A DNA stretch of 64,000 nucleotides, taken from contig NZ_JAYMGZ010000002.1 in the NCBI RefSeq assembly GCF_037078405.1, positions 744,001-808,000 of the forward strand, written 5' to 3'. The notes under the pieces are model-generated. The model made no database searches. It had not been told where the DNA came from and was given only the letters and a program-made list of their open reading frames with translations. Shown here one piece after another: positions 59,277-61,521 of this stretch. A program made the translations under genes and the position numbers. Position 1 is the first letter of the stretch; every line of letters starts with the position of its first letter. Source of the DNA: Haloarcula sp. DT43 (GTDB lineage: Archaea; Halobacteriota; Halobacteria; Halobacteriales; Haloarculaceae).

Positions 59277-60904
59277 AGCCGCTCGGACACGTGGTCGGCG
59301 CACTTCAGCGCGAGCGCGGCGATGGTCAGCGTCGGGTTCATCGACCCGGCGGTGACGAACACCGACGAGGACGCGATAGCGAGGTTCGCCACGTCGTGGG
59401 TCCGTAGCTGTGGGTTCACGACGCTCTCTTCGGGGTCTGTCCCCATCCGCGTCGTCCCCATGTGGTGGTACGCCGGGCCGGTGTTTTCCGGCCCGACCGT
59501 CCAGGAGACGTCGACGCCGAGCTCGTCCAGAATCGCGTGCTGAATCTCGTTCGCCCGCGAGAGCGACCGCTCCAGCCGGTCGCCCCACGACCACTGGACG
59601 TCCGGCACCGGGTTCCCGTGGTCGTCCGTCGTCGAGGCGTCCAGCGTCACGCGGTTCCCCTTCCGCGGCGGCTGGCCGACCAGCCCGCCCATGGCGATGC
59701 TGTTGCCGTAGGCGTCCCGGAGGCTCGACAGCAGGGTGTCGCCCCACTCCTCGCCGGAGAGGGCGAGTTCGACCGGCGACGGGCCGGCGTAGTTCAGGAA
59801 CTCCAGTTTCAGCGGCGACAGCGCCCCGTCGGCGGCCGCGACCAGCGTCTCGCCGTCCGCGACCCGCTCGACCGCCTGACCGGGGTCGTCGTAGAACTGG
59901 TGGCACTCGCTCGTGAGGAAGCCGACGTGGTTCTGGCGCGTCTCGCGGTCGAGCGTGCCGCCGGCCCCGGCAAACAGGTGGTCCATGAAGTAGTGGCCGA
60001 CCAGCCCGGACCCGTTCGCCAGCCCCTCGGGATGGTTCTCGGTCGCCGACAGCAGGAGGAGCCGCGGCGTCTCGACGCCGCCCGCCGCGACGACGAACTC
60101 GCGGGCCGTCTGGCGGTGTTCGGTCCCGTCTGGCGTCGCGTACACGGCCGCCTCGACGCGGCCGCCGCTGTCGGTTTCCAGGCGCTGGACCGGCACGCGG
60201 TCGAGGACTCTGGCCCCCTCGGCTTCGGCGTCCTCGATGTGGACGCTTGCGTCGTATTTCGCCCCCGAGGGACAGACCGGCTGGCAGGTCCCGTAGCCGA
60301 CGCAGGGCCCCCGGCCGTCGTAGGGCTCTGAATTGCGGGCGTTGGGGACGGAGTGCATCGTGATGCCCAGCCGCTCGCAGGCCTCGGCGAACAGCGAGTC
60401 GCTGTACGACGGCGGGAATCCGGGCAGAGGATACGCGCCGTCCCGCGGCGGCGCGAAGGGGTTGTCCGCGTCGCCGGCGACCCCCAGCGCCCGCTCGGCG
60501 TCGGCGTAGTACGGCCGCAGGTCGTCGTAACCGATGGGCCACGCGGGGTCGTCGGTGTCGTGGCTCCCGTCGAAATCCGACGGGTGCAGCCGCATCACCA
60601 TCCCCTGCCAGTGCAGCGTCGACCCGCCGACGCCTTTCACCCGGGCGACGTTCAGCGGGTAGTACTGCTCGCCGCTCGCGCTGAAGGCGTCGCGGTCGCC
60701 GCCCATCCCCCAGACGGAGCCGTGGTCGCCGGGGCGAATCGCCGCCTCCATCTGCTCGTCGCGCCGCTCCCTGTCGAACCGCGGCCCGGCCTCCAGCACG
60801 ACCACGCGCTGCCCCTCGCTGGCGAGTCGGCTCGCGACGAGTGCGCCTGCCGGGCCGGCACCGACGACGCACACGTCCGCCCGGTCGGACGGCTCCCGGT
60901 CCAT
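59273..60904 (-). CDS. GMC oxidoreductase (gluconate dehydrogenase-like)
   Basis: 543 residues. FAD motif VVGAGPAGALVASRLAS at residue 13. A Cys cluster C201-x5-C207-x3-C211-P (GPCVGYGTCQPVCPSG) is typical of the membrane gluconate/sorbitol dehydrogenase flavoproteins. The His/Asn catalytic region HHMGTTRMG and NPTLTIAA ends the protein. No cytochrome or small subunit gene is adjacent. Its promoter holds an iron-box-like palindrome. Confidence 0.9.
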   Translation of the reverse strand: MDREPSDRADVCVVGAGPAGALVASRLASEGQRVVVLEAGPRFDRERRDEQMEAAIRPGDHGSVWGMGGDRDAFSASGEQYYPLNVARVKGVGGSTLHWQGMVMRLHPSDFDGSHDTDDPAWPIGYDDLRPYYADAERALGVAGDADNPFAPPRDGAYPLPGFPPSYSDSLFAEACERLGITMHSVPNARNSEPYDGRGPCVGYGTCQPVCPSGAKYDASVHIEDAEAEGARVLDRVPVQRLETDSGGRVEAAVYATPDGTEHRQTAREFVVAAGGVETPRLLLLSATENHPEGLANGSGLVGHYFMDHLFAGAGGTLDRETRQNHVGFLTSECHQFYDDPGQAVERVADGETLVAAADGALSPLKLEFLNYAGPSPVELALSGEEWGDTLLSSLRDAYGNSIAMGGLVGQPPRKGNRVTLDASTTDDHGNPVPDVQWSWGDRLERSLSRANEIQHAILDELGVDVSWTVGPENTGPAYHHMGTTRMGTDPEESVVNPQLRTHDVANLAIASSSVFVTAGSMNPTLTIAALALKCADHVSERL

Positions 60905-60915
60905 CTCAGCAGGAG

Positions 60916-60936
60916 TTAGGCAAGCCTAAACTTATA
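60916..60936 (-). promoter_or_regulatory. Promoter and iron-box-like operator of the GMC gene
   Basis: TTAGGC-AA-GCCTAA at 60916-60929 is a perfect 6-bp inverted repeat of the DtxR/SirR/Idr type. On the minus strand it lies between TATAAG (60931-60936) and the start codon (60904). The predicted transcription start is near 60907. A metal-bound repressor here would block the core promoter. Confidence 0.65.
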
Positions 60937-61067: not shown

Positions 61068-61104
61068 GCGAGTGTGTTTCGAGCGGACGCGAGAAACCAC
61101 GAAG

Positions 61105-61178
61105 CGGGCGTGGCGGGATTCGAACCCGCGTTCTAGGGGTTAGGAACCCCTCGCCCTGGTCCACTAGGCCACACGCCC
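61105..61178 (-). tRNA. tRNA-Arg (anticodon CCU)
   Basis: A 74-base cloverleaf on the minus strand: acceptor GGGCGTG with CACGCCC, D arm TGGCCTAGTGGACCA, anticodon loop TTCCTAA giving CCU, T arm GCGGG-TTCGAAT-CCCGC. Discriminator G, no encoded CCA. No intron is seen. It decodes AGG. Confidence 0.95.
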
Positions 61179-61254: not shown

Positions 61255-61521
61255 TTACGTCTCGGTCTCTTTCGTCGTCTCGGTTGCCTCGGTCGTGTCG
61301 ACGGCGTCGCTCCCCTCGGAAGCACCGCCATCGCGCATCTCTTCGAGTTCCTGCTCGACTTCCTCGCGCCCCTTCTGGAACTCGCCCATGGCTTCGCCGG
61401 TCGACCGCGCCAGTTTCGGAATCTTGTTCGCCCCGAACAGCAGGACGGCGATGAGGAGGATGACCATCATCTCCGTCGTCCCGGGCATCCCCGGGAACAG
61501 TACTCCGGATGTCCCTAACAT
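61255..61521 (-). CDS. tatA: Twin-arginine translocase TatA-type subunit
   Basis: 88 residues. One hydrophobic helix (TEMMVILLIAVLLFGANKIPKLARS) is followed by the hinge FGANKIP and an amphipathic helix, then an acidic tail. Haloarchaea export most secreted proteins through Tat. A GGTTATAATAG box centred near 61549 lies about 27 bases before the start, giving a leaderless mRNA. Confidence 0.93.
   Translation of the reverse strand: MLGTSGVLFPGMPGTTEMMVILLIAVLLFGANKIPKLARSTGEAMGEFQKGREEVEQELEEMRDGGASEGSDAVDTTEATETTKETET

Follow-up and report, generated by a model that had tools for sequence, protein, structure and literature searches.

Why should the gene for a GMC oxidoreductase in a haloarchaeon carry a palindrome resembling an iron box directly between its TATA element and its start codon? 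An earlier note had pointed to this arrangement in Haloarcula sp. DT43, in the 64,000-nucleotide stretch of DNA analyzed here (the window). We compared the site with other sites in the same genome, followed it across haloarchaeal orthologues, and examined the enzyme and its gene neighbors.

The GMC promoter

The box consists of two perfect 6-nt arms, TTAGGC and GCCTAA, around a 2-nt AA center, and it reads TTAGGCTTGCCTAA along the direction of GMC transcription. The coordinates that the earlier note had assigned to the box, the TATAAG element, and the ATG are all correct on the sequence (Table 1). Its description of a perfect inverted repeat holds for the arms but not for the whole 14-mer, which with its AA center is not self-complementary and has two mismatches against its own reverse complement. 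The box fits the inverted repeat TTAGG-n4-CCTAA, which we take to be the consensus of the DtxR-family iron operator of haloarchaea. The window contains one exact copy of TTAGGNNNNCCTAA, compared with none in 100 dinucleotide shuffles. A TATA-like stretch occupies the matching position in most orthologues when the upstream DNA of the 163 described below is examined. The distance of about 30 nt from TATA to ATG suggests that the GMC transcript is leaderless or nearly so. At several other sites in this genome a second box lies about 35 bp away; no such second box was found at the window site within one mismatch.

A tRNA-Arg(CCT) gene and then a tatA-type gene lie 5' of GMC on the same strand, and a convergent YdjM-family gene lies 3' of it. 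The box therefore serves the GMC gene alone. Tat would be the route for the RR signal of the gamma subunit described below; the nearness of the tatA-type gene to GMC may be a coincidence.

Table 1. Positions of the GMC gene, its promoter elements, boxes and associated genes in the genome of the window, and the three gene arrangements found among orthologues.
Feature	Position	Strand	Basis or remark
GMC oxidoreductase gene, 543 aa	59273..60904	-	Pfam GMC_oxred_N/C
Codons for C201-x5-C207-x3-C211	60272..60304	-	aligned to BcGDH Cys212/Cys218/Cys222
GMC start codon ATG (CAT on plus)	60902..60904	-	11 nt 3' of box
Inverted repeat TTAGGCAAGCCTAA, iron-box-like	60916..60929	.	sequence read, pattern search, shuffles, orthologue conservation
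TATAAG, TATA-box-like element	60931..60936	-	sequence (CTTATA on plus); directly 5' of box
tRNA-Arg(CCT) gene	61104-61178	-	
tatA-type gene	61255-61521	-	
Exact boxes before three Peripla_BP_2 lipoprotein genes	C3:197615, C3:289738, C4:320301		
Exact box before FecCD permease and ABC ATPase genes	C3:287342		
Exact box before FbpA-like lipoprotein (SBP) gene	C4:324616		heads permease-ATPase operon
Exact box before RGP gene	C4:323406		
Exact box before DUF5059/plastocyanin lipoprotein gene	C1:843655		
Exact box at gene for surface protein with PGF-CTERM	C3:193602		
Tandem exact boxes beside Fe_dep_repress (DtxR-family regulator) gene and ISH3 transposase gene	C1:757848, 757884		
Exact box between ferritin-like gene and DUF7547 gene	C4:313864		
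Exact box before 42-codon frame	C1:846184		
Paired boxes	C1:757848/757884, C1:843620/843655, C1:846149/846184		
Paired boxes, continued	C3:193565/193602, C3:287306/287342, C4:320301/320336		
Seventh box pair	C4:313864/313890		spacing 26
DUF5059 and plastocyanin-domain lipoprotein gene	L006:7121-9640 (C1:843620-846139)		preceded by tandem boxes, spacing 35 bp
RGP gene	L010:5938-7101 (C4:323437)		between two boxes at operon head
Gamma gene	C4:330588-331154		closes the boxed Fbp-type operon
One-mismatch box TTCGGTTGACCTAA	L016:4767-4790 (C1:934766)		ends 9 nt before ABC ATPase gene
ZnuA-type binding-protein gene	L012:4497-5632 (C2:823996)		one-mismatch box 51 nt before it
Ferritin-like gene	L009:7050-7601		exact box ~260 nt past gene
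Ferritin-like gene	L015:3970-4545		one-mismatch box ~90 nt upstream
GMC paralogue (52%)	C2:597105-598769		no box
Gamma-like gene	C2:598793-599335		directly upstream of GMC paralogue
Arrangement 1			gamma-GMC pair behind one box
Arrangement 2			GMC alone behind box; gamma within boxed Fbp operon
Arrangement 3			all genes in single boxed operon

Other boxes in the genome

We searched the genome of the window (3.75 Mb in 19 contigs), using the reversed pattern as a control. Exact TTAGGNNNNCCTAA sites numbered 13, against one for the control. When one mismatch was allowed, the overall enrichment was gone (28 sites, against 33 for the control), which ruled out one-mismatch sites as a genome-wide predictor. 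Because this class is not enriched, weight can be given to an exact site, or to a one-mismatch site that forms a pair with an exact one, but to no others.

Five of the 12 other exact sites lie directly 5' of genes for siderophore or ferric-iron ABC transporters (Table 1). A scan near iron genes, as the earlier note had proposed, thus found copies there, together with a tandem pair beside a DtxR-family gene, and the possibility it had raised of no other copies near metal genes is ruled out. In the PDB the SBP is closest to ferric-iron-binding proteins (E 5.4e-59). Four of the five iron-transport genes have an unambiguous start, and these four share one promoter layout: an AT-rich, TATA-like stretch, the box, and a start codon 3-8 nt further on. 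The layout of the window GMC promoter matches theirs, with the start codon 11 nt on.

The genome encodes DtxR-family regulators, with four Fe_dep_repress matches over the cut-off. The tandem boxes at C1:757848/757884 lie beside one DtxR-family gene, and we limit our claim to that position. Plain autoregulation of this gene was rejected, as the ATG behind one of the boxes opens a frame of just 46 codons. Seven box pairs occur in the genome, six of them with a start-to-start distance of 35-37 bp; the GMC box is single. The regular 35-37 bp pairing suggests co-operative binding. One pair precedes the gene for a lipoprotein with DUF5059 and plastocyanin domains, a possible copper electron acceptor within the iron regulon.

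Several further sites were recorded. One-mismatch box TTCGGTTGACCTAA precedes an ABC ATPase gene resembling sufC, and a Fe_dep_repress gene lies about 4 kb downstream. Another one-mismatch box precedes a ZnuA-type gene, near which a DtxR-family protein with a FeoA domain is encoded. Two ferritin-like genes also have boxes in their vicinity, an exact one past the first gene and a one-mismatch one upstream of the second.

Conservation of the box at GMC orthologues

A homologue search gave a match in 102 of 116 genomes of the window's family and in 170 of 243 genomes of its order. We examined the DNA upstream of 163 orthologues, comprising 94 from the window's family and 69 from 11 other families; the 69 were selected for breadth across families, out of 130 genomes beyond the window's family that gave a match. 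Genomes of the family that were not counted are G007 and G079 (contig ends), G101, G027, G077, and G090 (fragments or unretrieved), G070 (49% match only), and G043 (61-62% matches only, placed with the paralogues).

Of the 163 orthologues, 150 have a box with no more than one mismatch in the 1.2 kb upstream (83/94 in the window's family and 67/69 in the others), and the box was exact in 139 (76/94 and 63/69); relatives are not independent, so these counts are not probabilities. Boxes occurred in 11 of the 12 haloarchaeal families examined. No box appeared in 20 rounds of shuffling the same upstream DNA, and none of 16 GMC paralogues (50-62% identity) had one. The 150 boxes represent 49 different 14-mers, whose arms are constant (in part because the search fixed them) and whose center varies. 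Within the window's genus, about 50 nt around the box and start are nearly unchanged, and the distance to the upstream tRNA gene varies by genome.

When seven Halorhabdus genomes (genus g2) with the box at the head of an operon are counted, 157 of the 163 orthologues stand behind a box. Only a two-mismatch site is in place in G088 and G265. In four of the 163 (G019, G081, G092, and G125), not even a two-mismatch box is present. A box lay within 1.2 kb at most of the best 80 of 219 named loci (69 exact and five one-mismatch); these 80 overlap the genomes of the 163 orthologues and were not added to the counts. The boxed gamma-GMC operon is also present in Halobacterium salinarum.

The earlier reading of the palindrome as an iron-box-like site is supported, with copies at iron transporters and conservation at GMC across haloarchaea. 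Its sequence and distribution indicate that it is very probably an iron-responsive switch. Conservation of the box before GMC or its operon further suggests that the enzyme helps cells obtain iron.

The GMC enzyme and its probable gamma subunit

The best PDB sequence relatives of GMC are the FAD glucose dehydrogenase of Burkholderia cepacia (BcGDH; 8hdd/6a2u, E 1.6e-82) and fructose dehydrogenase (FDH; 7w2j). When the predicted GMC model was searched with Foldseek, the best nine matches were all FDH or BcGDH alpha, with E values of 1e-38 or better, and the tenth was at 7e-24. Residues C201, C207, and C211 are invariant in 28/28 aligned orthologues. Their BcGDH counterparts, Cys212, Cys218, and Cys222, are the 3Fe-4S ligands of that enzyme (excerpt of PMC6719666). 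The cysteine loop has a pLDDT below 50 in the predicted model, and the cluster ligands are assigned from sequence only. By these comparisons GMC is similar to the alpha subunit, the catalytic one, of FAD glucose/fructose dehydrogenases and has putative 3Fe-4S cysteines. Metal control of a GMC flavoprotein, previously called unexpected, is less odd because the enzyme resembles a 3Fe-4S dehydrogenase; its probable place in a two-subunit, Tat-exported complex had been missed.

The putative second subunit, gamma, is a protein of about 180 aa with a Gluconate_2-dh3 (gluconate-2-dehydrogenase-subunit-3) match. The gamma of the window's genome scores 40.2 bits against PF13618 (cut-off 23.4 bits), and one of two gammas profiled from other genomes fell just below the cut-off (21.6 vs 23.4 bits). 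The twin-arginine motif RRD is invariant in 26/26 gammas. The predicted gamma model has a good core (mean pLDDT 81.6). Compared with PDB folds it gave no match with E <1, BcGDH gamma included, and a gamma profile searched against PDB sequences did not recover BcGDH gamma. Our assignment of gamma draws on a single Pfam family, together with the RR motif and gene position. BcGDH gamma acts as a hitchhiker subunit with a twin-arginine signal (excerpt of PMC6719666). The haloarchaeal GMC enzyme is probably half of a two-subunit, Tat-exported complex.

Cytochrome c domains PF00034 and PF13442 gave no match anywhere in the window's genome. The electron acceptor must therefore differ from that of BcGDH. 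With no cytochrome c (beta) counterpart by these two families, GMC-gamma is a variant rather than a member of the full three-subunit complex.

Rearrangements of gamma, GMC, and the Fbp-type operon

The orthologues differ in where the box stands. It is immediately 5' of GMC in 45 of 150 (the direct class), and the box-to-gene distance is 10-11 nt at 18 of these 45 promoters. In the distant class (105/150) the box is 500-700 nt from GMC and precedes gamma and then GMC; behind every one of these 105 boxes an ORF for a gamma with the RRD signal starts 4-14 nt on.

In the window's genome, a direct-class member, gamma closes a separate run with the order box-RGP-box-SBP-permease-ATPase-M668-gamma, in which, from SBP on, neighboring genes overlap or are separated by a few nt. 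This run encodes, in a row, the FbpA-like SBP, a BPD_transp_1 permease, and an ABC ATPase with a TOBE domain, and M668 is a membrane protein with DUF7846 and a weak PMT_2 match. Gamma lies 2-119 nt behind M668 in 44/44 genomes searched, a set that covers the direct-box class except G022 and also takes in G014, whose box has one mismatch, and G092, which has none. All seven Halorhabdus genomes that lack a box close to GMC carry these genes on a single strand, in the order box-SBP-permease-ATPase-M668-gamma-GMC. The gene composition points to an FbpABC-type ferric-iron transporter, with ferric iron as its predicted substrate.

Split or joined, gamma and GMC both stay behind boxes near or with iron-transport genes. 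This is the strongest argument for function, because the boxes and the iron-transport company persist through each rearrangement. The three arrangements (Table 1) provide a natural experiment linking the GMC enzyme to ferric-iron uptake.

Two other features of the neighborhood were recorded. The gene between the two boxes at the operon head encodes a member of the reversibly glycosylated polypeptide family (RGP), also present in 5/7 Halorhabdus genomes. A GMC paralogue elsewhere in the window's genome is unboxed and immediately follows a gamma-like gene of its own.

A model for iron control of the enzyme, and its alternatives

We propose, with a probability of roughly 0.74, that GMC is an exported dehydrogenase of iron starvation, repressed through a DtxR-family iron operator and serving iron acquisition. 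Which regulator acts, whether it represses, whether alpha and gamma form a complex that is exported, and what role this has in iron uptake are the inferred parts of this model. An iron-loaded DtxR-family repressor would sit between TATA and start and block assembly of the transcription complex. We read the control as repression because the position of the box matches that at siderophore-binding-protein genes. When iron is scarce, the repressor would leave, and GMC would be expressed along with the transporters for siderophores and ferric iron under the same operator. Alpha would pair with gamma, encoded here at the end of the boxed FbpABC-type operon, and the folded alpha subunit, carrying FAD and 3Fe-4S, would leave the cell by hitchhiking on the Tat signal of gamma. 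The exported enzyme would oxidize some substrate at the cell surface and so aid iron acquisition. We favor two readings, in which the enzyme would either reduce ferric iron at the surface or make a chelating acid. More tentatively, the system may represent an ancestral haloarchaeal route of cell-surface redox iron uptake, built on a starvation-induced, Tat-exported FAD/3Fe-4S dehydrogenase that lacks a cytochrome c subunit and works by Fe(III) reduction or sugar-acid chelation beside an FbpABC-type importer, with whose genes its own are split, paired, or merged; the co-regulated blue-copper lipoprotein (the boxed DUF5059/plastocyanin protein) could then be its electron acceptor. Several points count against our model. 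A 3Fe-4S enzyme costs three iron atoms, which is odd for a starvation gene, and the words gluconate, GMC, and oxidoreductase are absent from the excerpted text on the Haloferax volcanii iron-starvation proteome (PMC11349517); both points also speak against the two favored readings. Further counterpoints are the four orthologues lacking a box and the two with a two-mismatch site, the negative PDB searches with gamma, the low-confidence cysteine loop, and the single box at the window site.

In one alternative the box is real, but GMC works as a plain sugar or alcohol dehydrogenase of catabolism and is tied to iron through regulatory economy only. The closest solved relatives of GMC are indeed glucose and fructose dehydrogenases, and the earlier note had suggested a tie between sugar oxidation and iron status. 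A catabolic sugar link is doubtful, however, because the boxed operon occurs in H. salinarum, which reportedly does not draw energy from carbohydrates (excerpt of PMC10817205). The merging of gamma and GMC into the ferric-iron transporter operon in Halorhabdus also speaks against it, and we regard a purely catabolic enzyme as unlikely.

A DtxR-family protein could also exert the opposite control, activating the gene when iron is plentiful, so that the Fe-S dehydrogenase would be made only at times when the cell can spare the metal. The enzyme retains the 3Fe-4S ligands, and several Fe-S proteins are lower under iron starvation (excerpt of PMC11349517). Yet the box lies between TATA and the start codon, the repressing position seen at siderophore-binding-protein genes, and gamma shares a box with an FbpABC-type ferric-iron transporter, which would hardly be needed in plentiful iron. 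We therefore consider activation improbable.

We give similarly low odds to an operator for a DtxR-family Mn/Zn sensor, or for an unrelated regulator with the same motif. DtxR-family Mn sensors exist, four Fe_dep_repress proteins over the cut-off are encoded in this genome, and the ZnuA-type gene has a one-mismatch site 51 nt in front of it. That site, however, belongs to a class not enriched over the control, whereas the exact sites accompany ferric and siderophore transporters.

Chance is a negligible explanation: a 14-mer inverted repeat with a free center can arise randomly in a large genome, but the shuffles and the retention of the arms around a varying center in many genera rule it out.

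Iron boxes before transporters are already known; GMC and gamma as a target may be new. In the literature searched, we found no earlier report linking the enzyme with iron in haloarchaea, and Leyn and Rodionov 2015, Schmid 2011, and Martinez Pastor 2024 may list it. Our results place an enzyme previously annotated as a GMC family oxidoreductase within a conserved haloarchaeal iron regulon, which makes its role approachable. If our model is correct, it would suggest a redox step in archaeal iron acquisition.

Comparison with known systems

The window box presumably belongs to the same motif class as the haloarchaeal DtxR-family signal (Idr1/Idr2, SirR, TroR). This signal is reportedly the one that Leyn and Rodionov named the ferR regulon signal in 2015. 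In H. volcanii, every fhu gene or operon has a ferR signal in front of it (excerpt of PMC11349517). Like the signal of the haloarchaeal iron regulon, the window box occurs in copies before siderophore and iron ABC transporter genes; what differs is the target in the window, a GMC oxidoreductase with a predicted Tat-signal partner.

The enzyme is similar to the gamma-alpha unit of BcGDH (6a2u, 8grj) in its alpha sequence (E 1.6e-82), its predicted alpha fold (Foldseek E 4.4e-39), its three putative 3Fe-4S cysteines, and its candidate small Tat-signal subunit of the Gluconate_2-dh3 class. In BcGDH, Cys213 forms a disulfide with gamma (excerpt of PMC6719666), whereas the corresponding position in the window GMC is Val202 and the gamma of its own genome has no cysteine at all. 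The window enzyme also differs from BcGDH in standing under an iron box and in its tie to a ferric-iron transporter. The large subunit of Gluconobacter FDH (7w2j, 8jej) resembles GMC in alpha fold and sequence and is among the top Foldseek matches; unlike in Gluconobacter, a gene for the membrane cytochrome c subunit was not found in the window's genome (PF00034, PF13442).

Finally, the operon that carries gamma shares with FbpABC/HitABC systems a ferric-type SBP, a BPD_transp_1 permease, and a TOBE-domain ATPase. It differs from them in adding RGP, M668, and gamma, and in all seven Halorhabdus genomes it adds GMC as well.
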